A DNA stretch of 64,000 nucleotides from Halieaceae bacterium. Lineage in GTDB: Bacteria > Pseudomonadota > Gammaproteobacteria > Pseudomonadales > Halieaceae. The stretch is taken from NCBI GenBank assembly GCA_028282105.1, contig JANQIO010000178.1:1-64000 (forward strand), in the 5' to 3' direction. This document shows positions 3,740 to 36,079 of this stretch, in pieces. A program made the position numbers and the translations under genes. Under the pieces are notes generated by a model. It was not told the origin of the DNA. It was given only the letters and a program-made list of their open reading frames with translations, and searched no databases. Within the stretch, counting starts at the first letter, position 1. Every line of letters begins with the position of its first letter.

Positions 3740-5509
3740 ATGCACTACTTTGGACCATTGAACCACTGCCTGGCCCGGCCGCTCTTGAAACGCAGCACCT
3801 CAAGCACTGACACCGCCCTCGCAGAGGAGTTATTGCGGCTCCTCTCGGCACAGGTCACGCACTCACCCGTGAGCGTGATCGTGTCCATGAGCATCATCGC
3901 CTACATGGCCTACCAGCAGGCACCGAACCTGCTGTGGCTGTGGAGCTGCTGGCTGGGACTGGTGGTGCTGGCCCAGGCGGCGCGGGTTGTGATTATCCGC
4001 GGGCTGCGGGCGCGCAGCCACCTGGAGCCCCACCGCACGCTGCGCACCGCCGCACTGGTCAACGTCTGCAACACCATTCTCCACAGTGTCTCGCTGGTGT
4101 TCTTCCCGCTGTTCACGCCGTTCCAGGCGGCGCTGCAGTCTATGCTCATTATCGGTATGGGCGTGGTGTCCACGGTCACGGCCATGGGTTTCCTGCCCTT
4201 CGCCCTGGCCCACATCTGCCTGGGCCTGCTGCCGCTGTTCAGCATGTGGGTATGGAGCGGCCTGGCTGGCCCCGGCGGCGTGATGGGCCTGCTGATTGCG
4301 GTCAACGGTTTTGGTTATATGGTCACCCTGTTTTTCGTCTCGCGGCGCATCTTTGCCATGTTCAGGGAGTCGTTTGAAATGCGCGCGCAGTTGGAGGACG
4401 CCCTGACCCAGGCCGAGGCTGCCGGCAATGCCAAGACCCGCTTCCTCGCCTCGGCCAGCCATGACCTGCGGCAGCCCATTCACACCCTGTCGCTATTCAG
4501 CGCCGCGCTGGGCATGCGTGAGCTGGACGCCAGGGCCACCCATATAGCTGAGAACATCGACAGCGCCGTCAAGGCGCTGGCCTACCAGCTCGATGCCCTG
4601 CTCGACATTTCCAAGCTGGACGCCGGCATCGTGTCCGTCAAGCTGACGCGTTTCAACCTGGACACCATGCTGCACCGCCTGCACGAAGAGTTTCTCGCGC
4701 CCGCAGCCGAAAAGGACATCAGTATCTCCCTGGACTGCCCGCAGGCTGCCGTGGTGCGCAGCGACCCGGGGCTGCTGGAGCGCATCATGCGCAACCTCCT
4801 CACCAACGCCATCGCCCACAACAGCGATTGCACTATCCAGGTGGTGGCAACGCGCGAGGGCGAGCTCTGGGAAGTGACCGTGTCCGACACCGGCACCGGT
4901 ATCTCCGAGCATGACCAGCAACACGTTTTCGAGGAGTTCTACCAGGTGGAAAACCCGGAGCGCGACCGCAGCAAGGGCCTGGGTCTGGGCCTTGCCATTG
5001 TCCAGCGCCTGTCGAAGTTGCTTGACCTCAAGCTGGCGCTGGAGTCCGAGCCCGGCTGGGGCACCCGTTTTACGCTGAGCATCCCCGCAGATGCCATGCC
5101 CGCCACCACCACCGAAGCGCAGCGCCAGGTCAGCTCCCTGGAGGAACTCAAGATTCTGGTGGTCGACGATGAAAGCCAGGTGCGCGACGGGATGAAAGTG
5201 CTGCTGGAAGTGCTGGGCTGCAGCGTACAGGTAGCCAGCAACACCAGCGATGCGGTGTCTATGGCGACTACCGAAAAGCCTGACCTGGCGCTGGTGGATT
5301 TTCGACTGCGTGATCACGACACCGGGCTCAACACCATTGATCGGCTGCGCCACCTGTACCCGGGTCTGCCGGCCATCATCATCAGCGGCGATACCGCCCC
5401 GGATCGTCTGCAGCAGGCGCGCGCCGCCGGGGTGCCGATACTGGCCAAGCCCGTGCTGGTAGACCCGCTCAAACAAGCGATTTCAAAGGCCTGCCATATT
5501 GGAGCCTGA
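3740..5509 (+). CDS. Hybrid sensor histidine kinase with C-terminal receiver domain
   Basis: Multi-TM N-terminus; H-box FLASASHDLRQPIH; HATPase motifs (NLLTNAIAHN, DTGTGIS, GLGLGLAIVQRL); receiver domain LVVDDE...LALVDFRL...AKP. Confidence 0.93.
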   Translation: MHYFGPLNHCLARPLLKRSTSSTDTALAEELLRLLSAQVTHSPVSVIVSMSIIAYMAYQQAPNLLWLWSCWLGLVVLAQAARVVIIRGLRARSHLEPHRTLRTAALVNVCNTILHSVSLVFFPLFTPFQAALQSMLIIGMGVVSTVTAMGFLPFALAHICLGLLPLFSMWVWSGLAGPGGVMGLLIAVNGFGYMVTLFFVSRRIFAMFRESFEMRAQLEDALTQAEAAGNAKTRFLASASHDLRQPIHTLSLFSAALGMRELDARATHIAENIDSAVKALAYQLDALLDISKLDAGIVSVKLTRFNLDTMLHRLHEEFLAPAAEKDISISLDCPQAAVVRSDPGLLERIMRNLLTNAIAHNSDCTIQVVATREGELWEVTVSDTGTGISEHDQQHVFEEFYQVENPERDRSKGLGLGLAIVQRLSKLLDLKLALESEPGWGTRFTLSIPADAMPATTTEAQRQVSSLEELKILVVDDESQVRDGMKVLLEVLGCSVQVASNTSDAVSMATTEKPDLALVDFRLRDHDTGLNTIDRLRHLYPGLPAIIISGDTAPDRLQQARAAGVPILAKPVLVDPLKQAISKACHIGA

Positions 5510-5512
5510 TCC

Positions 5513-8500
5513 ATGGAAGATGCAGACAGGGAGAGTACGCAGGAGGATGCCGGCACTGCCGCCACCTGGCTGTCCGAGGGACTGGAAGTCCTCATCGCCG
5601 AACTCGACGGCCGAGACCAAAACGGCTCTGCACCCGACTTCGATGTCATCATAATCGGCAGCGGTTATGGCGGCGCCATTGCCGCTTCGCGGCTGGCCTG
5701 GGCAGAGAACGCCGCCGGCGCACCTCTCAAGGTCTGCCTGCTGGAACGTGGCAAGGAATACCTGCCCGGCATGTTTCCCGCCAGTGTTGCCAGCCTTGCC
5801 GGCCACGTCCGCGTGACCACCCCGCGCAGTTGGAACACCGAACAGGAACGCGAGCAGGGTGAAGCCAGTGCCGGGGTCGAGGGTCTCCGGGACGGCCTGT
5901 TTGATATACGCGTGGACGATGACTACAACGTGCTGGTTGCCAACGGCCTGGGCGGCGGCTCCCTGATCAATGCCGGGGTAATGGAGACCCCGCCCGCCAG
6001 CTTCTTCAACAGCGGGTGGCCCAGCGAAATCCTCGAGGATGGCGAGCTCCTGAGTTACTACCGGGACATGAAGCGGGAACTCGGCGCCGCCGATGGCCAC
6101 GGGCGCGACAATACCATCGCCCTGCACGAGCAGGTGCAACGCCAGCCGCTCAAGAAACACAGCGCGCTGAAACAGCTCGCCAGCGGCTCCCCCCACGCCC
6201 AGTTTCGCGATGCCGCCATCACAGTGTCCATGCAGGACAGTGACAATGACGCCGGCGTCGCCATGCGCCGCTGTACCCTGTGCGGCGATTGCGCCACCGG
6301 CTGCAACATGGGAGCCAAAACCTCGCTGGACCTGAACCTGCTGGCCAGGGCCCGACGCCGGGAGCAGATGCGCATCGTTACCGGCGCCACCGTGCTCACG
6401 GTGACGCCCGGCGGTGAGTTCTGGAACGTCGAGGTGGCGCACACACTGCCGACCCTGGCCGCCAAGGAGGGCAAGGCCACCGTTCTCAAGGCTCGCCAGG
6501 TTATCGTCGCTGCCGGTGCGCTCGGCTCAACGGAGATCCTGATGCGCAGCAAACGGGCGGGGCTCGCGGTATCCGATGCGCTCGGGGAAGGTTTCTCCGG
6601 CAACGGCGACATGATCGCCGTGGGCTACAACATGGAGCCCGAAATCAACGCCGTCGCCGACGAGGCCGATGCGCTCGACGCTCGCCGCGTGGGACCGACG
6701 ATTACCGGCGTGGTGGACTGCCGTGACGCCGATCAGCAGCACCCGGTAGTGATTGAAGAGATGGCGGTACCGGGCGCCATGCGCTGGGTGTTTGAAGAGC
6801 TCTACACCACCGTCAATAGCCTGCGCCAGCTCGCCACCGTGGACTGGCGCACCCATGACAAAAAGCACCCCGACCCGGATCCCCTGTCTGTCGACCGCAA
6901 GGCGATCCAGCACAGCCAGGTCTACGCGGTGATCGGTGACGACGGCGCCGACGGCGTGCTGGAATTCCGCGACGACTTTAGCCCCACCAGCGACGGCGCC
7001 ATCACCATCAACTGGCCGAGCGTGCGCAGCAAGCCCCTGTTCCCGGCACAGATAGAGCAGCTCGAATCCCTGGCCAGGCACTCCGATAGCGGTGGCAGCA
7101 TCATCCCCAACCCACTGTGGCGCCCACTACCCGACAACCTGGAGTTTCTTGCCGGCGGCGCCCGGGGCCCGCTGATGACCGTTCACCCGCTGGGCGGTTG
7201 CCCCATGGCCGACAGCGGCAACCAGGGCGTGGTCAATCACTGTGGCCAGGTTTTCAGCGGCAATGGCAAAGCCGTGCACCGCAACCTCGCGGTACTGGAC
7301 GGAGCAATCCTGCCACGGGCCGTCGGCACCAACCCGGCGCTGACCATCGCCGCTCTTTGCGCCCGCGCTATGCCCCACCTGCTCAAACACTGGTGCTACA
7401 CAGCGGTTGCCGAAGACATCGGCGAGCAGTTCCGCCAGCGGCCCCATTTTGACCACATTGAGCCACCAGCCGTCCGGCAGCGCACTGAGATGCAGTTTGC
7501 CGAGCGCCTGCGCGGGCCACTGACGCTCACGGTGGGCGGTGTTGAAAAAGACTACGTCGCGGAGCTGACGCTGTTCTTCAAGGACAAGGCGCTGCACGAG
7601 CTCACCGCCGCCCGGGACCAGAACGGCGGCCTGCACACCCTTACGGTTGCCGATCGCTCCGCCGCCAGCCACAAACGCAGTCAGCTGCGATTGTTTGATC
7701 TCGATACCTGGGAGGCCATAGACCGCGAGTACCTGTCCGGCCGAGAGCTGGAGCAGCGCCTGGACGCGGCAAGCCAACTGACAGCGCCGCTGCGCGGCAG
7801 CCTTACCATCCTCGCCAGGGAGCCTTCAAACGTACTGCAGCGCACCTGGCGCGCCCTGTGCGCCTACTTTGGCAATCGCGGCTGGCGGGATTTTTACCAA
7901 TCGCGCCACCCACTGGAACCGGACAGCGAAGCCGACAAGGCGCACCAGGCAGACAGGCAGAACGCGCCCGGGACGGGTAGCATCGGCTGGAGTGGACTGA
8001 AACACCTGAGCCGCGCCGGCGAGGTGCGCCTGTTTGAATATGAGCTGACGCTGAATACCGACGGCATCACCTCCCCGCTGGCAGAAAAACTGCGGGAAGC
8101 AGACCAGCGTATCCACGGTTACAAGCGCATCGGCTATATGCGGCGCGGCAATCCACTGCGCCAGCTCATGGAAGTGGATCTCGATGCCTTCCCGCAGCTG
8201 GCCAAGCACCGCCCGGCCAAACTCACGCTGCGACCGGAATTCCTGGCCCGCAAGGGCCTGCCCCTGTTCCGGATTTCCAAACAGCAGAACCTGGCGCTGG
8301 CGTTGACTGAGGTGGGCTCGCTGGCGGCCTATTTCATTCGCCTGCTGCTGAACACCCATCTGCTGAGCCTGAGGGCGCCGGACACTGCCCCGGCCCGCAC
8401 ACCCCGGCGCCTGCCGGGGTCGGTGCCCGGGTTGCCGGAGGTCGAGATACATCGCCGCAGGATCACTGAGCGGCCGCCGGGTGCGCCGCCCAGCCACGAG

Positions 8501-11284
8501 GGTGAGTACCGCCTCTCCCGCTACCCGGCTGCCAATACGCAGCAGCCGCCGGTGCTGATGATTCACGGCTACAGCGCCAGCGGCACCACCTTTGCCCACC
8601 ATTCCGTGAACCCCAACCTGGCGAGCTTCCTGTGGCACCGTGGCCGCGATGTCTGGATTCTTGATATGCGCTCGAGCTGTGGCATGCCCACCAGCCGCCG
8701 CAATTTCAGCTTTGAAGAGCTGGCCTATGCAGACATTCCGCTGGCGGTGGAGCAGGTATGTGAGATCAGCGGGGCCGAGAAGATCGACGTTGTCGCTCAC
8801 TGTATGGGCTCGGCGATGCTGTCGATGGCGGTGTTGACAGCGGCGGACCTGCCTGCGGACGCCACCTACCCGGTCCAGCACAGCAAACTCCCGCAGCGAA
8901 TCAACCGGCTGGTGATGTCCCAGGTCGGGCCTGTGGTCTGCATGGCGCCAGAGAATGTGTTCCGAGCCTACGCCTTCAGCTACCTCAAGCACTTCCTGCC
9001 GCTGGACCAGTACCAGTTTACCCCCGGCGGAAATGGCTTCGATACGCTACTGGACCGCGCCCTGGCCCTACTCCCCTACAGCGACGCAGAGTACGACCTG
9101 GAAAACCCTGCGCAGTGTTGGAAGCGCACCCCCTGGACTCGCACCCGCCGCCGCATGGACCTGCTTTACGGGCGTACGTTTTCGCTGAAGAACCTGGCCC
9201 CGTTGACGCTGGAGTGCATTGACGACCTGTTTGGTCCACTCAGTGTCGACACCGCGACCCAGGTGCTGCACTTCGCGCGCTACCAAACCATCACCGACCA
9301 CAGCGGCAACAACCTCTATGTGTCCCGCGACCAACTCGCCAGCAGTTGGACCTTCCCCACCCTCAGCGTTCACGGCCGTGACAACGGCCTGTCCTGGCGC
9401 GGCACCATCGGCCGCCTGCAGCGCCTGCTTCGCGAGGACGCCGGCCGCAGTTGGCGCAGCGTGGTGTTCGACGATTTCGGCCACCAGGACAGCCTGATCG
9501 GGCGCGGCGCGGAGGCCGTCTTCGCAGAGATCGAAGGCTTCCTGGCGGAGCCGGATAGCGTCCCGGTGACGCCACCGGCCCGGTCGCTGCTGCTGCAACC
9601 GCCCTGGTCCGGACCGGTCATGTCGGTGCCGCCCGATGACCAGACCGCGAAAACGCTGTCGATCAGCTTCGGCGTCAATCCGGCCTTGTCCAGGCCCAGG
9701 CTGCTACTCTGCATACCGCTGCGCGATCACCAGTACGGGCATCAGCTGGTATGGGAAAACGGCACTGATGCGCCGACCATGCAGCTCCAGGTTCTGGACC
9801 CGAAAGAGATCCGCTACAACTGGTGCAAGGTGGACATCGACTGGCCTGACACGCCGGCGGGCCATGACCGGGTGCTGTTGCTGCTGGTGTACAACGAGTC
9901 AGCGCTGCTGGACAACGCCGTGTTCGGCAAAGAGCCCTCAAACATCGATGAGTTTATCGGCGCTCGAGAACTCGACCCGGACCGACCCTGGCTCGCCAAA
10001 GAGCAGCTCGCAACAGCGCGATCGGCACTGGGCGATGGCAGTGAGTGCCTGCAGCAGCGGGTTCACGAACTGCTGCTGGAAGGCGCCCATGCCCTGCGCC
10101 ACGGCATTCTGCGCCTGCCAGAGCGCCGCGGAAACGGCCTGGTGATCGCCGCTGGTAGCTGCCAGTTTCCGCCGGGAATACTCGACCAGTGGCCTGGCTT
10201 CAACAGTTACTTCCGGCTCGCCAGCGGCTGCTACGACAGCGACTTCCCGCACCCCGACCTGCTGGTACTGCCGGGTGACCAGATCTACGTCGACAGTACC
10301 GCGGGCGTCTTCGACCCATCGGCGCTCGATGAGCGCTACCAGCATCCCTACCAGCGCTTTTATCGCTCCAGTGCCGCCCGCGCGGCCCTGCGGGAAGTGC
10401 CAGCCTGCATGATGCTGGACGACCATGAGATCGTCGACAACTGGGAACCGCTCCCCGATGATCCCGAGAACTGGCAGCGCCATGCGGAAGGGCTGGACTA
10501 TTTCCGGGTGTTCCAGCGCGACCGACACCGGGCCTGTGCCAAGGGCCTCTGGTACCAGTTCCAGCGCAAGGGCTTCGAATTTTTTATCCTCGACAGCCGC
10601 AGCGAGCGCAGCGGCCGCACCAGTGCCACCGCCTTCAAGGCCGACATGCTCTACGACGCCGACCGCGGCGGCGACCCGCAGCGCAACCAATGGCAGGCAT
10701 TGGAAACCTGGCTAAAGCGCGGGCCACGGGATCGCCCCCGGTTTCTCGTCTGCCCCGCCATGCCTTTCCCCCGGGAGCGGCGTGCGATTACCGGCAGCAC
10801 ACACTATGACGGCGATGGCCAGGAGCCACAGCGCTTTGCAGCGGCTATGCACTCCGACAGCTGGACCGGCTATCCCGACAGCCAGGCGCGTCTGCTGGAG
10901 CTCATCAAAGCCTCCAAAGTCAGCAAGCTGGTAATGATCAATGGCGACGCCCATCTGGGCTGCATTGCAGAAGTCTGGCTGGATGATAGCGAATTCCCCT
11001 TCTGGGCCGTGCACGCCTCCGCGCTCTACGCCCCATTGCCCTTTGCCAACGCGCGCCGGGCTGACCTGAAGGCCTGCGAGGCCTTCACGCTACCGCGCGA
11101 CATCAGCGGCAGGGTCTACACGGAGTTCGCACCGCCGGGCGACGGCTTCGCTATCCTCTCCGTGCGGGAAGCCGGCGCGGACTGGGAGATTGAGGTCAGC
11201 TATGATCGGGAGGGGGTGGCGTCAAACCAAGCTTGGCGGCGGCAAATACCGCTTCAGTCCGGTTGTGGACACCCAGTGCCTTGA
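5513..11284 (+). CDS. 1923-aa fusion: GMC oxidoreductase (cholesterol-oxidase-like) + alpha/beta hydrolase + PhoD-like metallophosphatase
   Basis: FAD motif VIIIGSGYGGAIAASRL and GMC C-terminus HPLGGCPM...VGTNPALTIAALCAR; hydrolase VLMIHGYSASG...VAHCMGSAM...DDFGHQD; phosphatase LVLPGDQIYVD...MLDDHEIVDNW...MINGDAHLG. One uninterrupted frame. Confidence 0.88.
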   Translation: MEDADRESTQEDAGTAATWLSEGLEVLIAELDGRDQNGSAPDFDVIIIGSGYGGAIAASRLAWAENAAGAPLKVCLLERGKEYLPGMFPASVASLAGHVRVTTPRSWNTEQEREQGEASAGVEGLRDGLFDIRVDDDYNVLVANGLGGGSLINAGVMETPPASFFNSGWPSEILEDGELLSYYRDMKRELGAADGHGRDNTIALHEQVQRQPLKKHSALKQLASGSPHAQFRDAAITVSMQDSDNDAGVAMRRCTLCGDCATGCNMGAKTSLDLNLLARARRREQMRIVTGATVLTVTPGGEFWNVEVAHTLPTLAAKEGKATVLKARQVIVAAGALGSTEILMRSKRAGLAVSDALGEGFSGNGDMIAVGYNMEPEINAVADEADALDARRVGPTITGVVDCRDADQQHPVVIEEMAVPGAMRWVFEELYTTVNSLRQLATVDWRTHDKKHPDPDPLSVDRKAIQHSQVYAVIGDDGADGVLEFRDDFSPTSDGAITINWPSVRSKPLFPAQIEQLESLARHSDSGGSIIPNPLWRPLPDNLEFLAGGARGPLMTVHPLGGCPMADSGNQGVVNHCGQVFSGNGKAVHRNLAVLDGAILPRAVGTNPALTIAALCARAMPHLLKHWCYTAVAEDIGEQFRQRPHFDHIEPPAVRQRTEMQFAERLRGPLTLTVGGVEKDYVAELTLFFKDKALHELTAARDQNGGLHTLTVADRSAASHKRSQLRLFDLDTWEAIDREYLSGRELEQRLDAASQLTAPLRGSLTILAREPSNVLQRTWRALCAYFGNRGWRDFYQSRHPLEPDSEADKAHQADRQNAPGTGSIGWSGLKHLSRAGEVRLFEYELTLNTDGITSPLAEKLREADQRIHGYKRIGYMRRGNPLRQLMEVDLDAFPQLAKHRPAKLTLRPEFLARKGLPLFRISKQQNLALALTEVGSLAAYFIRLLLNTHLLSLRAPDTAPARTPRRLPGSVPGLPEVEIHRRRITERPPGAPPSHEGEYRLSRYPAANTQQPPVLMIHGYSASGTTFAHHSVNPNLASFLWHRGRDVWILDMRSSCGMPTSRRNFSFEELAYADIPLAVEQVCEISGAEKIDVVAHCMGSAMLSMAVLTAADLPADATYPVQHSKLPQRINRLVMSQVGPVVCMAPENVFRAYAFSYLKHFLPLDQYQFTPGGNGFDTLLDRALALLPYSDAEYDLENPAQCWKRTPWTRTRRRMDLLYGRTFSLKNLAPLTLECIDDLFGPLSVDTATQVLHFARYQTITDHSGNNLYVSRDQLASSWTFPTLSVHGRDNGLSWRGTIGRLQRLLREDAGRSWRSVVFDDFGHQDSLIGRGAEAVFAEIEGFLAEPDSVPVTPPARSLLLQPPWSGPVMSVPPDDQTAKTLSISFGVNPALSRPRLLLCIPLRDHQYGHQLVWENGTDAPTMQLQVLDPKEIRYNWCKVDIDWPDTPAGHDRVLLLLVYNESALLDNAVFGKEPSNIDEFIGARELDPDRPWLAKEQLATARSALGDGSECLQQRVHELLLEGAHALRHGILRLPERRGNGLVIAAGSCQFPPGILDQWPGFNSYFRLASGCYDSDFPHPDLLVLPGDQIYVDSTAGVFDPSALDERYQHPYQRFYRSSAARAALREVPACMMLDDHEIVDNWEPLPDDPENWQRHAEGLDYFRVFQRDRHRACAKGLWYQFQRKGFEFFILDSRSERSGRTSATAFKADMLYDADRGGDPQRNQWQALETWLKRGPRDRPRFLVCPAMPFPRERRAITGSTHYDGDGQEPQRFAAAMHSDSWTGYPDSQARLLELIKASKVSKLVMINGDAHLGCIAEVWLDDSEFPFWAVHASALYAPLPFANARRADLKACEAFTLPRDISGRVYTEFAPPGDGFAILSVREAGADWEIEVSYDREGVASNQAWRRQIPLQSGCGHPVP

Positions 11285-11840
11285 AGGCGGCCGACAGGTG
11301 CGTCTTCACGGTGCCCTCGGCAATGTCCATTTCCCGGGCAATCACCTTGTTGGGTTTGCCCTGAATGGCCTTCAGCAGCACATCGGTTTGGCGCAGGGAT
11401 AGCAGGTCAGTGCGCGCGCTGTCGTCCACCGGCGCTCGCTCGCTGGTGGCATTGAGCGCCGCCTGCGGCAGGTAAACGCCGCCAGCGAGGATCAGCCTGA
11501 GAGCGGCCACCAGCACTTCCGAGCTGGAGGCCTTGGGCACAAAACCCGAGGCGCCCTGCTCAATCGCGTCGCGAATAATATCCGGATCGTCCATGCCCGA
11601 CAGCACGGCAATCTGTACTGCGGGATGGGCTTCATGGATTTTCTGCAGGGCCGTCAGCCCGTCGGTGCCGGGCATGTTCAGGTCCAGTAGCGCGAGGTCT
11701 ACGCTGGCCTCTTCGAGTACGCCCAGCGCTTCCTCGCAGTTGCCCGCGTCGGTGAATTTGATTTCATCGTTGAGGTCGGTGAGAAGGAACCGCATTCCCT
11801 GACGAAACATCTCATGATCGTCAACCAGCAATACATGCAC
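11196..11840 (-). CDS. LuxR/NarL-family response regulator
   Basis: REC domain VHVLLVDDHEMFRQGM...LALLDLNMPGTDG...VPKASS and LuxR HTH LSLRQTDVLLKAIQGKPNKVIAREMDIAEGTVKTHLSAAFKALGV; likely GTG start at 11840 (longest ORF extends to 11933). Confidence 0.93.
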   Translation of the reverse strand: MHVLLVDDHEMFRQGMRFLLTDLNDEIKFTDAGNCEEALGVLEEASVDLALLDLNMPGTDGLTALQKIHEAHPAVQIAVLSGMDDPDIIRDAIEQGASGFVPKASSSEVLVAALRLILAGGVYLPQAALNATSERAPVDDSARTDLLSLRQTDVLLKAIQGKPNKVIAREMDIAEGTVKTHLSAAFKALGVHNRTEAVFAAAKLGLTPPPPDHS

Positions 11841-11864
11841 TGTTATTATTTCCGCCGCCGTACC

Positions 11865-11882
11865 ACTAAACCAATGGTGTAG
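11865..11882. promoter_or_regulatory. Near-palindrome ACTAAACCAATGGTGTAG upstream of the response regulator (site C)
   Basis: CTAAACCAATGGTGTAG is a near-palindrome and shares ACTAAACCAA with site B; about 26 nt upstream of the likely GTG start. Confidence 0.4.
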
Positions 11883-12313
11883 AACGATAGTCCAATTGCG
11901 CTGAGATGTACACGCGAGACAATAGTCATGCACGCTTGCAGATTGCCCGAAAGGGCCGTGCTCCTATTGATTCCTCATGGATTTGAGAAAGTGGCCAGGG
12001 ACGGCTCTTTTTTCATAAAACCCCTATAAATCCAGTGTTTTCTGGCATCGAGCTGCGTTTTCGCACCCGCCGCCTCCTCTCCCGTTCGGTCAGCATTTCG
12101 CGCCGCAGCAGCCCTTGCAATGACCCACTTTCGACCCAGCTGCGAGCCAATTCGGGACCCGCGTATGTAGAGTGGTTTGTGGAGTGCAACTAAGCTGCGC
12201 GTGAGCCATGAATGTGCATTGTTTCCGTGGTTCGCACAGCTCCCGGCAAAGCTTGCGCCGGGCTTTCTGCGGCGCGTTTGCTGCGCTGTTCTTACTGCAC
12301 TGCGTTTACTGCT

Positions 12314-13111: not shown

Positions 13112-13852
13112 TCAGGCTGCGTCGCGTTGCTGCAGCCAGGTGGTGAGTTCGTCAGCGCCGCCGATGTGCTCGCCATTGATAAATACCTGCGGGTAGGTGT
13201 CACCACCAGACAGGGCTCGCAGGGCGCGGTGCGGGTAGTCCCGCAGCAACTCCAGCTCGTCGTAGTCGAAGCCGTGCTCGCGCAGCAGGATCTTGGCGCG
13301 CTCACAGTGCGGGCAACCGGGACGGGTCAGCACGGCCACGTCCAGCGGCGCCTGGGTGCCGGGTGCGACATATTCCAGCATGTGGTCGGCGTCAGATACC
13401 TGGAAGGGGTCGCCGGGTTCCTGGGGCTCAATGAACATCTTCTCTACCACGCCGTCATTGACCACCATCGAGTAACGCCAGGAGCGCGGCCCGAAGCCGA
13501 GGTCGTCCTTGTTAACCAGCATGCCCATGCCCTTGGTGAATTCGCCGGTGCCGTCAGGCAGGAAAGTGACGTTGAATGCCTGCTGCTGGAGTTGCCACTC
13601 ATTCATCACGAAAGAGTCGTTGACCGACACGCAGATGATGTCGTCAATGCCATTGGCCTTGAATACTGCGGCCAGCTCGTTGTAGCGCGGCACATGGCTG
13701 GAGGAACAGGTGGGCGTAAATGCGCCCGGCAGGGAGAACAACACGACCCGCTTGCCCTTGAAGTAGCTGTCGGTGTCGCGATCAACCCAGTCGCTGCCCT
13801 GGCGGGTTTTAAAGGTGACCTGGGGTACTGCCTGGCCTTCTCGATTTTCCAT
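13112..13852 (-). CDS. Hybrid peroxiredoxin (Prx5)-glutaredoxin
   Basis: Prx5 active site [19 protein letters not shown]-terminal glutaredoxin domain [14 protein letters not shown]...[17 protein letters not shown]. Confidence 0.93.
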
Positions 13853-31956: not shown

Positions 31957-32313
31957 ATGGAAATAGCAGATGTACTAACACTACTGGCGAGTAATCCGGA
32001 AGGATCCTTTCTGGAGTTTTCTCCATTCAATGGAAAGAGCTTTGGCACATGTAGTGTGACGGGTGTTTCACCTGGGTGGGAGATGCATCCGGATACTGAT
32101 GAGTTTTTCTATGTCATTGAGGGGACCGTGGAGATCACTCTCCTTGAAGCTGAACGCCAGCATTACATCGCACCGGCCGGCAGTTCATTTGTTGTTCCTC
32201 GCGGCGTATGGCACAAACCCGGGGCGCCCGAAGGGGCAAAATTCATCTACTTTACACCCGGGCAGTCACTGTATTCGGAGAGCGAGGACCCACGCATTGA
32301 AGACAACGCCTAA
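31957..32313 (+). CDS. Cupin-domain protein
   Basis: WEMHPDTDEFFYVIEGTVEITLLE...APAGSSFVVPRGVWHKPGAPEGAKFIYF. Confidence 0.85.
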   Translation: MEIADVLTLLASNPEGSFLEFSPFNGKSFGTCSVTGVSPGWEMHPDTDEFFYVIEGTVEITLLEAERQHYIAPAGSSFVVPRGVWHKPGAPEGAKFIYFTPGQSLYSESEDPRIEDNA

Positions 32314-32662
32314 GCAAGTAATTGCAAAGTGGGTTGATTCATTCAACAGTGCTGATGCCGATGCATTGGCTAACTTCTATACGGCTGACGCAATCAACTA
32401 TCAGGTTGCAGAAAGTGAGATACATGGCCGAGACGCAATACGAGAAATGTTTGAGAGAGAGTTTGCGACGGCGGAGATGGTTTGTATCGTCGAGAACATC
32501 TTTGAAGATGGGGAATGGGCCATCCTCGAGTGGCGAGACCCTCTAGGCCTGCGAGGATGCGGCTTCTTTCATGTTATTGACGGCAAGATTGCGTATCAGA
32601 GGGGATATTGGGACAAGTTATCTTTTCTTCGCCAGCATGGACTCCCTATTCCACATGATTAG
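32297..32662 (+). CDS. SnoaL/NTF2-like protein
   Basis: KQVIAKWVDSFNSADADALANFYTADAINYQVAESEIHGRDAIREMFEREF...DGEWAILEWRDPLGLRGCGFFHVIDGKIAYQRGYWDKLSF; start uncertain (TTG 32297). Confidence 0.75.
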   Translation: MKTTPKQVIAKWVDSFNSADADALANFYTADAINYQVAESEIHGRDAIREMFEREFATAEMVCIVENIFEDGEWAILEWRDPLGLRGCGFFHVIDGKIAYQRGYWDKLSFLRQHGLPIPHD

Positions 32663-32673
32663 TTGGCCCCCTG

Positions 32674-32739
32674 GCCAGTTGGGGCTATTCGCTCACTGCG
32701 CTCGCCGGGCGCAGCTACAGCTGCGCCGCAGCCCCTGGC
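32674..32739. repeat. Long imperfect hairpin, attC-like or terminator
   Basis: GCCA (32674-32677)/TGGC (32736-32739), GGGGCT (32681-32686)/AGCCCC (32730-32735), inner perfect GGCGCAGC (32708-32715)/GCTGCGCC (32720-32727). Confidence 0.55.
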
Positions 32740-33013
32740 GTTCTTTTTGTAAATCGAGAAAAAGGTGACCAATCAGCTGAACCCGGCTTAAGCAATAATT
32801 GCCTGCTGCCGGCTGCTCAAACTAATTCAAGAAACAAGCCAAAATGCCGCAGAATTCCCAGGCCCGGGTTGGGAGCCGGTGTTTGAAAAACTGAATGAAG
32901 CGCTTCATAAGGCAAAGGAAGTTTTAGCTGCTCACGGCCCGGACCCCAAATACGTCGACTGAGAATAAAGCACTCGCGCAAATTACAAGTCGAGGATGCA
33001 AGGGGTCCAAGAG

Positions 33014-33073
33014 GTAAGACTCTTTGATGCTCCCGCGGATACCAGCAAACTGCAAGTCAAGGAGTCTGACCCC
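33014..33073. repeat. Imperfect inverted repeat of the GGGGTCAGACTCCTTGA type
   Basis: GGTAAGACTCTTTGA opposite TCAAGGAGTCTGACCCC (33057-33073). Confidence 0.6.
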
Positions 33074-33186
33074 TTGATACCTGGGCTACCCTCGGGATAG
33101 TTCGCCTCGCTGCCCGGGACCGTGTATTCATGACTCTTGCGGCTTAGAATCAGTAAACTGATATAGAAACGCCAGATTCGTAGCCA

Positions 33187-33588
33187 ATGGAAGATACAAC
33201 AGCTTTCTCTACGCTTGCGCCAGCAGAGCTTCTCAGTCTCGCCAACGAATTCAATACGCTCGGCGGCACCTATTTTGCGATGTACCTAACTCTCGTTAGC
33301 GGGTATCTCGTTGCCGCATATCTCGCAGGTGCAAACTTGACTCGCGGTCAGGTGCGTCTGGTAAACGGCATGTTTACCCTGTCATCGATCTACTTCGTTT
33401 GGAGTACGATGACGATGTGGCTTGCGGGTGTATCCATTTACCTGGAAGCGGCAGATGAGGAATGGAAACGCAATCTGTATGTGACAGCGGGACTGAACTT
33501 ACTCCTCACTATAGCAATGATAGTGGGCATTATCGCGAGCCTGCATTTCATGCATGGCGTTAGGACTAGGGCAAACAGAGAGAATTGA
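33187..33588 (+). CDS. Small integral membrane protein, unknown function
   Basis: 133 aa with about 3 hydrophobic segments; no family recognised. Confidence 0.6.
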   Translation: MEDTTAFSTLAPAELLSLANEFNTLGGTYFAMYLTLVSGYLVAAYLAGANLTRGQVRLVNGMFTLSSIYFVWSTMTMWLAGVSIYLEAADEEWKRNLYVTAGLNLLLTIAMIVGIIASLHFMHGVRTRANREN

Positions 33589-33613
33589 GCCCGCCTTGCC
33601 TGCTCGAATTCAG

Positions 33614-33630
33614 GGGGTCAGACTCCTTGA
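33614..33630. repeat. Inverted copy of the 17-bp repeat at 33057-33073
   Basis: GGGGTCAGACTCCTTGA is the exact reverse complement of TCAAGGAGTCTGACCCC. Confidence 0.8.
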
Positions 33631-33650
33631 GAACGCAAAGGTTAGAGAGA

Positions 33651-34076
33651 GTGAACAAGACTGCTCAGAAAGAGACCATGGGGTTTGGTCCTATTGCCGC
33701 CCTGGTCATTCTCGTGGGTTACCTGGGATTCGAGCTCACGATGCTCAGTGCCCAGAAGTATCGAACGGAACCGCTGTTTGTGCATTACGAGTTTGTCACG
33801 GCTGATCAAGCCGTGATGCGTTGCGGCGACCCCGGCGCCGAGGAGCGGCAGCGATTTCAGTCGAACTTCCAGGCCGTTCGGCGCAAGGCCTTCGCGGACC
33901 TTCGGGAAACCAATCCGCAAGCTTCGCAGGATGAGCTTTCCCGCGAGCTCGATGCACTGGCCACACAACGCATCAGCGAGGTCGACGCCTTCATAGACGC
34001 CAATGGCTGCAAGCATAAAGACGTCTGGCGCTGGGTGAAACTGCACCAAGTGCGGGCGCGACTCAATTTGAAATAG
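33651..34076 (+). CDS. Hypothetical membrane-anchored protein
   Basis: GTG 33651 or ATG 33678 start, then TM segment PIAALVILVGYLGFELTML and a soluble helical domain. Confidence 0.55.
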   Translation: MNKTAQKETMGFGPIAALVILVGYLGFELTMLSAQKYRTEPLFVHYEFVTADQAVMRCGDPGAEERQRFQSNFQAVRRKAFADLRETNPQASQDELSRELDALATQRISEVDAFIDANGCKHKDVWRWVKLHQVRARLNLK

Positions 34077-34099
34077 TGTATTGAACGCCTGCCAGGGAG

Positions 34100-34462
34100 G
34101 TGAAGGTGGAGTTGCTGTTCTCCTACGGAACGCTGCAGCAGAAGGACGTGCAGCTTGCCAACTTTGGCAGGGAGCTTGACGGTAGCCATGACCTGCTGCC
34201 CGGGTACGTGGTGGGTGAAATTGAGATAACCGACGAGCGGGTGCTTCGGGAAAGCGGCAAGCGTATGCATCCCATCCTCAAGTACACGGGTAATCCTGAA
34301 GACGCCGTCAGTGGCACCGTTTTCGAGATTACCGCAAGAGAGCTCGCACAAGCGGACGACTACGAAGTTGACGCCTACCAGAGAATCAGCGCGCTCCTGA
34401 GGTCCGGCCGCACATGCTGGATCTATGCAGACGCGAATGAGGCGCCAGGCGGTCGCCAGTGA
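34100..34462 (+). CDS. Gamma-glutamylcyclotransferase (AIG2-like) family protein
   Basis: ELLFSYGTLQQKDVQLANFGRELDGSHDLLPGY...SGTVFEITARELAQADDYEV. Confidence 0.85.
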   Translation: MKVELLFSYGTLQQKDVQLANFGRELDGSHDLLPGYVVGEIEITDERVLRESGKRMHPILKYTGNPEDAVSGTVFEITARELAQADDYEVDAYQRISALLRSGRTCWIYADANEAPGGRQ

Positions 34463-34533
34463 TTTGCCGTGCAGAAATGCGCTTGCGTCACTCGTTTCCC
34501 ACGCTCAGTCCCGGAACGCGGCGCTGAGTACAG

Positions 34534-35103
34534 ATGATGTACTCCACGATCGTCATATCCGGCGCGCCCGGATCAGGGAAATCTACCGTGGCGGAACGCC
34601 TGAGTGCCGAGCTGAGGCTGCCCTTGCTCGCTAAGGACGCCATCAAGGAGTCCCTGTTTCGCGCTATTGGCTGGGGTGATCGCGAGTTCTCCAGGAAGCT
34701 GGGCGCAGCCAGTTTCGAGGTGCTCCTCTCACTTGCCCTGTCCTTTTACCAGCGGGATATCCCGTTTATCCTTGAGTCGGCTTTCAGAAAGGATGATGGC
34801 CAGCTGCTATCGAATGCCCTCCCCGGCGCGATCTTTTTACAAGTTCATTGTCACGCGGACAAAGCCGTCTGTTTGCGTAGATTCAGCGAACGTGACAGCG
34901 CCGGTCAGCGGCACCCAGGGCATGCTGATAGTGAAGGGGTATCGGACCTTAACAGCTATCTGGATGATGACCTGTTCGGCCCGCTGGCACTATCGGGCCG
35001 CTGCCTGGAAATCGATACCAATGACTTCCATAGAGATTCCTACGAGTCGGGGTATCGGGCGGTGGTGACGATGCTTAAGTCGAGAAAAAGCCAAGGAAGT
35101 TGA
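34534..35103 (+). CDS. P-loop kinase-like ATPase
   Basis: Walker A VISGAPGSGKST followed by LLAKDAIKESLF and LESAFR. Confidence 0.8.
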   Translation: MMYSTIVISGAPGSGKSTVAERLSAELRLPLLAKDAIKESLFRAIGWGDREFSRKLGAASFEVLLSLALSFYQRDIPFILESAFRKDDGQLLSNALPGAIFLQVHCHADKAVCLRRFSERDSAGQRHPGHADSEGVSDLNSYLDDDLFGPLALSGRCLEIDTNDFHRDSYESGYRAVVTMLKSRKSQGS

Positions 35104-35108
35104 GCGCA

Positions 35109-35591
35109 ATGCGGAAGGTTCTCATATTCGGTAACTCGGGCTCAGGCAAGTCAACGCTGGCAAAAGCGCTGCAGGACACCGACGGCCTTGCACACCTCGA
35201 TCTGGACACGCTGGCCTGGCTGCCGACTTCTGAGCCTGAGAGACGACCCCTGTCAGAGTCGAAAGCAGATATCGATGCATTTCGCGAGGCGCATGAAGAC
35301 TGGGTGATCGAAGGATGCTACGCCGACCTGATTGAACTGGCAGTCCCGCACGCCACCGAACTGTTCTTTATGGACCTTTCGGTCGAAGACTGTAAAGCCA
35401 ATGCCAGGCGCCGACCCTGGGAACCCCACAAGTACGCGACCAGGGAATCGCAGGATGCCAACCTGCCCATGCTGCTGGACTGGATTGCCCAGTATGAGGA
35501 GCGGGAGGGCCCTTTCTCCAGGGCTGCGCACCTATCGCTGTTCGAAGGCTTTACAGGCAAGAAAACACGCTTCACCCATAACGCACGCTGA
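35109..35591 (+). CDS. P-loop NTPase, adenylate/shikimate-kinase-like
   Basis: Walker A VLIFGNSGSGKSTLAKAL, HLDLDTLAW, WVIEGCYADLIELAVPHATELFFMDLS; TTG 35100 is an alternative start overlapping the previous gene. Confidence 0.8.
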   Translation: MRKVLIFGNSGSGKSTLAKALQDTDGLAHLDLDTLAWLPTSEPERRPLSESKADIDAFREAHEDWVIEGCYADLIELAVPHATELFFMDLSVEDCKANARRRPWEPHKYATRESQDANLPMLLDWIAQYEEREGPFSRAAHLSLFEGFTGKKTRFTHNAR

Positions 35592-35677
35592 CGCTGAGAA
35601 CAGGCTACACTCTCCGCCTGTACCGTCGTCGACCTGCCCCACCCCACTAGCCATTTCGTGAAGGAGAATCCAAGATC

Positions 35678-36079
35678 ATGGAAGCACTTATCGCCACCTA
35701 CAGTTCTTCGATCACTGCCCTCGGTGCTGTTGCAGCACTAATGCTTCTGCAGGTACTGGTTGTGGATCTACTGGGGATCATGAACAAACACGTGCCGGGC
35801 TCTCCGGTGGCGGCAGATCATTCCAACGCCTTGTTTCGCGCCACTCGCACCGTAGGGAATACCAACGAGAGCGTGGCTATTTTCATCTGCGCCCTGCTGT
35901 TCTGCCTGTTGTCTTCAGCGTCCCCTACTTATACCGCCTACGCGGCATGGGGCTATCTGTTGAGTCGCCTGGCATACGCAGTCTGCTACTACGCAAACCT
36001 GCAAATACTGCGCTCGGTGACCTTCGGCGTCTCCCTGCTCGCACTGGGCGCACTTATTTTCATTGGTGCCTTTACCTAG
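35678..36079 (+). CDS. MAPEG-family membrane protein
   Basis: Four-TM architecture; SNALFRATRTVGNTNESVAIFICALL and AYAVCYYANLQILRSVTFGVSLLALGAL. Confidence 0.8.
   Translation: MEALIATYSSSITALGAVAALMLLQVLVVDLLGIMNKHVPGSPVAADHSNALFRATRTVGNTNESVAIFICALLFCLLSSASPTYTAYAAWGYLLSRLAYAVCYYANLQILRSVTFGVSLLALGALIFIGAFT

Follow-up and report, generated by a model that had tools for sequence, protein, structure and literature searches.

The window, a stretch of 64,000 nucleotides from a Halieaceae bacterium, raises the question of whether three enzymes are genuinely joined in one protein and, if so, what such a protein does. The frame at 5513-11284 on the + strand runs through 1923 residues without a break and was found unaltered in the genome assembly. 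The initial annotation had recognised a GMC oxidoreductase, an alpha/beta hydrolase and a PhoD-like metallophosphatase in this single frame and had proposed a domain search as a check. A Pfam search of the product detected each of the three above the curated cut-offs, namely GMC_oxred_N (residues 135-346, 6.7e-13) with GMC_oxred_C (residues 556-615, 1.8e-8), Abhydrolase_1 (residues 1012-1155, 3.2e-10) and PhoD (residues 1561-1822, 3.7e-17), and the placement of the matches showed that the domain coordinates proposed earlier were about right. Not recognised at that stage were the linker domain, the cysteine used as nucleophile, the Cys4 motif and the signalling genes on either flank. The enzyme gene and its parts are as follows.

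5513..11284, + strand: three-enzyme ORF for a GMC-linker-Cys hydrolase-PhoD protein of 1923 aa (ORF translation, Pfam, homologues)
5618..7396, + strand: GMC oxidoreductase domain, about residues 36-628, with the catalytic pair H558/N607 (Pfam; cholesterol oxidase alignment)
6272..6304, + strand: Cys4 motif C254xxC257GxC260xxxC264, putative Fe-S ligands (invariance in 29 sequences, as specified below; spacing as in PMC6719666)
7394..8476, + strand: linker domain, residues 628-988, of predicted mixed beta/helix fold and with no Pfam assignment (AlphaFold, Pfam, profile comparison)
8480..9688, + strand: acid-lipase-like alpha/beta-hydrolase domain, residues 990-1392 (Pfam, profile, AlphaFold, fold search)
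8801-8803, + strand: hydrolase nucleophile C1097 (alignment, model)
9482-9484, + strand: hydrolase H1324 (alignment)
10115..11281, + strand: PhoD-like metallophosphatase domain, residues 1535-1923 (Pfam; alignment with Bacillus subtilis PhoD, 2yeq; ligand residues)

Collinear full-length homologues of 30-84% identity occur in independent genomes, and the joining of separate ORFs by sequencing error, a scenario raised in the initial annotation, is therefore ruled out. The three-enzyme frame is genuine and not an assembly artefact. A few relatives carry two separate genes, as would be expected if sequencing or assembly had produced the fusion, but the frame is found at full length in numerous independent genomes, isolates and Ensifer plasmids among them, which makes such an origin virtually inconceivable. 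A phage origin of the gene was also discarded, no PHROGs match being found. Inspection of the N-terminus by eye revealed neither a Sec nor a Tat signal, in line with the earlier remark that no signal peptide is obvious. The sequence GGAG at 5501-5504 lies 8 nt upstream of the enzyme ATG and within the 3' end of the preceding kinase gene. Each catalytic domain is a member of a known superfamily yet scores under the cut-offs of characterised equivalogs, and one such protein is publicly annotated as 'alpha/beta fold hydrolase'.

Within the same genus, proteins 72-84% identical were found in three genomes, in one of which contig ends cut the gene. Other members of the family encode more remote relatives, 1800-1900 residues long, and homologues on Ensifer plasmids share 37-41% identity over 90-99% of the query. 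A scan of a genome collection yielded 73 loci, the majority of them in alpha-, beta- and gammaproteobacteria; many of these relatives are from metagenome-assembled genomes, and ORF starts were called mechanically. The domain set occupies a single frame in ca. 45 of the 73 loci. A split form is present in at least 10 further loci (Ramlibacter, Aquabacterium, Rhizobacter, Mesorhizobium and others): a GMC-hydrolase gene of ca. 1250-1390 aa is directly followed by a PhoD gene of ca. 490-630 aa, the intergenic gap being -4 to +38 nt where the arrangement is clearest. A frameshift could explain the split locus L049, where the first gene is longer and the two genes overlap by 17 nt. On a quick enzyme tree built on the part common to the fused and split forms, the state switches at least four times. 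Catalytic residues are retained down to ca. 30% identity. The family is uncommon: at E <= 1e-60, a member was detected in 8 of 370 gammaproteobacterial genomes, one being that of the window, and several of the eight are of the two-domain form. Copies in metagenome-assembled genomes labelled Cytophagales and Nitrospirae (L054, L096) are found either at the end of a contig or on one that is very short; mis-binning may account for them.

GMC-hydrolase fusions had been described at the outset as a familiar kind, and two-domain relatives bear this out for the wider family. Separately, a gene for a calcineurin-type metallophosphoesterase was observed at L024:4140-5981, L028:13461-14912 and L108:5944-7848, where it adjoins either a GMC-hydrolase gene of the two-domain kind (Azospirillum, G011) or a lone GMC gene (Cupriavidus), as if a phosphoesterase had been recruited beside GMC genes more than once. 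A general link between GMC-hydrolase genes and calcineurin-type phosphoesterases was rejected, since only a few loci show it and the phosphoesterase is also present without GMC-hydrolase genes.

The oxidoreductase domain belongs to the GMC superfamily by its FAD Rossmann motif GSGYGGA, which follows an invariant pattern, its N- and C-terminal Pfam domains and its catalytic His/Asn pair; in the cholesterol oxidase alignment, His558 falls on HPLGG and Asn607 on NPFVTI, and both are invariant in the family alignment. The domain is closest to cholesterol oxidase (1.4e-35, vs 9.2e-7 for choline dehydrogenase, an identity that was dropped on this much weaker score), and its score against the cholesterol oxidase model NF058674 was 122.8 bits, under the curated cut-off of 850. 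The Cys4 motif of the domain reads CxxCGxCxxGC, and at these positions the solved cholesterol oxidases that were aligned have other residues. C254, C260 and C264 were invariant in 29/29 sequences, and C257 is replaced in one divergent relative. The [3Fe-4S] cluster of FAD-glucose dehydrogenase, which accepts electrons from FAD, has Cys212, Cys218 and Cys222 as its ligands (PMC6719666), and the spacing of C254, C260 and C264 is the same (C-x5-C-x3-C). A putative Fe-S cluster bound by the Cys4 motif is thereby suggested for the present GMC domain. The motif was found in 7/7 two-domain GMC-hydrolase relatives checked and in 4/7 single-domain GMC proteins checked; CxxCxxCxxxC was seen in the single-domain proteins at L009, L011, L016 and L019. 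A possible cluster may thus be widespread among these GMC enzymes, which suggests that one branch of the superfamily carries an overlooked Fe-S cluster.

A fourth domain of ca. 340 residues joins the GMC domain to the hydrolase. Residues 628-988 modelled alone with AlphaFold gave a pLDDT of 89.4 and a pTM of 0.82. No Pfam match was obtained for this domain across 38 members, and a PDB fold search with the model returned nothing significant (best E 0.036), with beta-barrel and lipid-carrier proteins among the non-significant matches. Profile comparison (hhalign 97%, E 1.8e-11, 138 columns) showed homology between its second half and the linker of two-domain GMC-hydrolase proteins. GMC-linker-Cys hydrolase is therefore a wider unit, and in the present clade PhoD is joined to it.

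For the hydrolase domain, whose AlphaFold model had a pLDDT of 84.9, the fold search placed lysosomal acid lipase and gastric lipase closest (E 4e-13 to 8e-12, 16-17% identity), the fold neighbours being lipases and esterases. In a profile search, acid lipases were likewise closest, PhoD hits apart. Lysosomal acid lipase and gastric lipase use a Ser nucleophile. Here C1097 occupies the strand-helix elbow of the model, so that fold and nucleophile elbow are those of the class, and the nucleophile is Cys in every sequence, within HC[MIV]G in the three-domain proteins and HC[FVY]G in the two-domain proteins. His1324 is invariant in the hydrolase alignment (A6), and at position 1290, where the triad acid would be expected, the residue varies (D, E, G or other). 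The Cys nucleophile implies a thioester acyl-enzyme from which both hydrolysis and transfer are possible, and the phrase '(thio)ester cleavage or transfer' in the initial annotation was thus a fair hedge. These observations suggest that bacteria possess a Cys-nucleophile branch of acid-lipase-like enzymes.

The invariance of this Cys in all three-domain and two-domain relatives, together with weak matches of PHA synthase models over the nucleophile region, would also fit a biosynthetic role, in which the Cys hydrolase domain is an acyltransferase with PHA synthase-like chemistry that builds an acylated product tailored by the PhoD and GMC domains. However, the PHA synthase scores were far under the cut-off (16.8 bits vs 365.3) and the fold neighbours are lipases and esterases; membership of the PHA synthases was rejected on these grounds, and biosynthetic assembly is unlikely.

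The PhoD domain is a member of Pfam PF09423 (62.9 bits vs a cut-off of 27), and Cys1550, Asp1589, Tyr1592, DDHE and GDxH are retained in nearly all relatives; the score was under the NCBIfam cut-off for alkaline phosphatase D. Some PhoD relatives are phospholipases D. The protein might accordingly turn over phospholipids, with PhoD acting as a phospholipase D, the hydrolase stripping acyl chains and the GMC domain oxidising the freed alcohol, e.g. choline. Although the GMC and lipase-like classes are compatible with this, the GMC domain scores as a cholesterol oxidase far better than as a choline dehydrogenase, and no choline or betaine genes recur nearby, which leaves phospholipid turnover decidedly improbable.

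The flanking sensor and regulator genes are the strongest clue to enzyme function. In the window these are as follows.

3740..5509, + strand: hybrid sensor histidine kinase of 589 aa with a hydrophobic membrane N-terminus, HisKA, HATPase_c and receiver (Pfam, hydropathy)
11196..11933, - strand: convergent LuxR/NarL-type response regulator (Pfam), whose gene shares 89 bp with the 3' end of the enzyme gene

The kinase gene ends 3 nt upstream of the enzyme ATG, and hydropathy indicated several, ca. six, transmembrane segments in the N-terminus of its product. When all neighbouring genes were clustered, three partners besides the split PhoD recurred widely, namely the hybrid histidine kinase, the LuxR/NarL-type regulator and, in alphaproteobacteria, a Guanylate_cyc-AAA protein; this clustering gave no recurrent metabolic neighbour as a clue to the substrate. 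Of the 38 beta- and gammaproteobacterial loci flanked by 2.5 kb or more on either side, 36 have the kinase within 3 kb of the enzyme, 31 the regulator and 37 either of them, and none has the cyclase; adjacency was scored as tblastn hits within 3 kb, which undercounts where ORFs overlap. In alphaproteobacterial loci, the cyclase was present in 11/11 and the kinase in 0/11. More than half of the kinase matches lie within 100 nt of the enzyme, in five gene-order patterns, and the match at L081 overlaps an over-long ORF start. The window kinase core shares ca. 40-93% identity with the kinases that adjoin the enzyme in most genera, whereas the next best in its own genome reaches 34%; the pairing of kinase and enzyme is therefore specific in those genera. 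For the divergent Halioglobus-Hahella-Pseudohongiella group, kinase identity is only 32-38%, and orthology is not shown by identity alone. The type of regulator switches twice on the enzyme tree, with loci too short to reveal the neighbour labelled by class, and the Mesorhizobium enzymes cluster with betaproteobacterial enzymes yet adjoin the cyclase. The alphaproteobacterial partner at L021:5645-9655 (Guanylate_cyc + AAA_16, ca. 1340 aa) weakly resembles the TOMM kinase/cyclase fusion model. Elsewhere in the window, G+C falls to 0.53-0.57 at 32001-36000 (vs ca. 0.63), a region with small ORFs, e.g. for cupin-like and P-loop kinase-like proteins, that is possibly acquired DNA, and an ORF read by eye as a peroxiredoxin-glutaredoxin type fusion lies at 13112-13852.

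The recurrent signalling neighbours raise the possibility that a hydrophobic signal, made or destroyed by the enzyme, is sensed by the adjacent membrane histidine kinase, the cyclase protein replacing the sensor in alphaproteobacteria. The constant presence of a membrane-embedded kinase and a LuxR-type regulator, the swap to another signalling protein in alphaproteobacteria and the failure of other neighbours to recur are consistent with this, and the layout would resemble that of RpfF/RpfC or CqsA/CqsS. An ordinary local regulator of the enzyme gene would give the same layout, however, and the nearest NCBIfam models are NahK/ErcS for the kinase core and NarL/ErdR for the regulator (scores under the curated cut-offs), not known quorum-sensing pairs. 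A role in making or destroying a signal is thus conceivable but rather doubtful, and we would be similarly hesitant to call the locus an undescribed lipid-signal system composed of a four-domain enzyme, a dedicated membrane sensor kinase and a LuxR-type regulator, with the cyclase on the sensor side in alphaproteobacteria.

The reading that we tentatively prefer is that the protein is a cytoplasmic multi-enzyme that modifies one class of hydrophobic metabolite (lipid, terpenoid or sterol-like) and is made under its own signal-transduction genes. It starts from what is observed in sequences and models, i.e. the domains, their conserved catalytic residues, the recurrence of fused and split forms and the sensor neighbours. 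The GMC domain would oxidise an alcohol with FAD, and the electrons would probably leave the FAD via a putative Fe-S cluster bound by the Cys4 motif. In the acid-lipase-like domain, the Cys would attack an acyl bond to give an acyl-enzyme that is resolved by hydrolysis or transfer, while the PhoD domain would remove a phosphate or cleave a phosphodiester. The linker domain may hold a lipid between the sites. A substrate of this enzyme would then present a hydroxyl group, a phosphate and an acyl bond, either simultaneously or successively.

Counted in favour of the multi-enzyme acting on lipids were the proximity of the GMC domain to cholesterol oxidase and of the hydrolase to acid lipases, the occurrence of the same activities in fused or adjacent form, the pairing with kinase and regulator or with cyclase, and the [3Fe-4S]-like Cys spacing; the lack of a recurrent metabolic neighbour, the non-conserved triad acid and the loss of C257 in one relative were counted against it. 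The sterol- or lipid-type substrate proposed in the initial annotation is plausible, given the similarity of the GMC domain to cholesterol oxidase and of the hydrolase fold to lysosomal acid lipase/cholesteryl ester hydrolase. Its stepwise processing of one substrate gains indirect support from the same three activities being fused or operonic, but a single shared substrate does not follow, as fusion indicates coupling and not a shared substrate, and the arrangement of the domains does not reveal the sequence of the steps. The substrate, the Fe-S cluster, the step order, channelling and the use of one molecule by all three sites are what we infer.

That the three activities are kept together in three proteobacterial classes, whether fused or split, suggests a pathway uniting oxidation, acyl chemistry and dephosphorylation, and the steady company of kinase and regulator, or of cyclase, makes the function of the enzyme directly testable. 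While each catalytic domain is of a known superfamily, no description of the architecture, of the locus or of such a pathway was found in the open-access literature searched.

Compared with known systems, the GMC domain has its nearest structural-database relatives in the GMC cholesterol oxidases (PDB 1coy, 4u2l; NF058674), with which the positions of the catalytic His and Asn align, whereas the solved enzymes have neither the Cys4 motif nor extra domains. It shares the GMC fold, the His/Asn pair and the C-x5-C-x3-C spacing with the catalytic subunit of Burkholderia cepacia FAD-glucose dehydrogenase (PDB 6a2u), which, unlike the present protein, works in a complex with hitchhiker and cytochrome subunits and lacks both the hydrolase and the PhoD domain. 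By fold as well as by profile, the hydrolase domain was matched best by lysosomal acid lipase and gastric lipase (PDB 6v7n, 1hlg), which differ from it in the nucleophile and in their low identity. The PhoD domain matches alkaline phosphatase D of B. subtilis (PDB 2yeq) in its Pfam assignment and in the DDHE and GDxH regions; known PhoD is a secreted single enzyme, whereas here it forms a C-terminal domain with no export signal visible by eye. Two-domain GMC-hydrolase proteins (Leptospira, Rhizobium, Azospirillum, Bernardetia) have the GMC domain with its Cys4 motif, a homologous linker and the Cys nucleophile in common with the present protein, but are ca. 1130-1280 aa long and do not contain the PhoD domain. 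Finally, the kinase core and the regulator are nearest to NahK/ErcS hybrid kinases and NarL/ErdR regulators, respectively, and the kinase differs from NahK/ErcS in its sub-cut-off score and in the hydrophobic membrane N-terminus that precedes its core.
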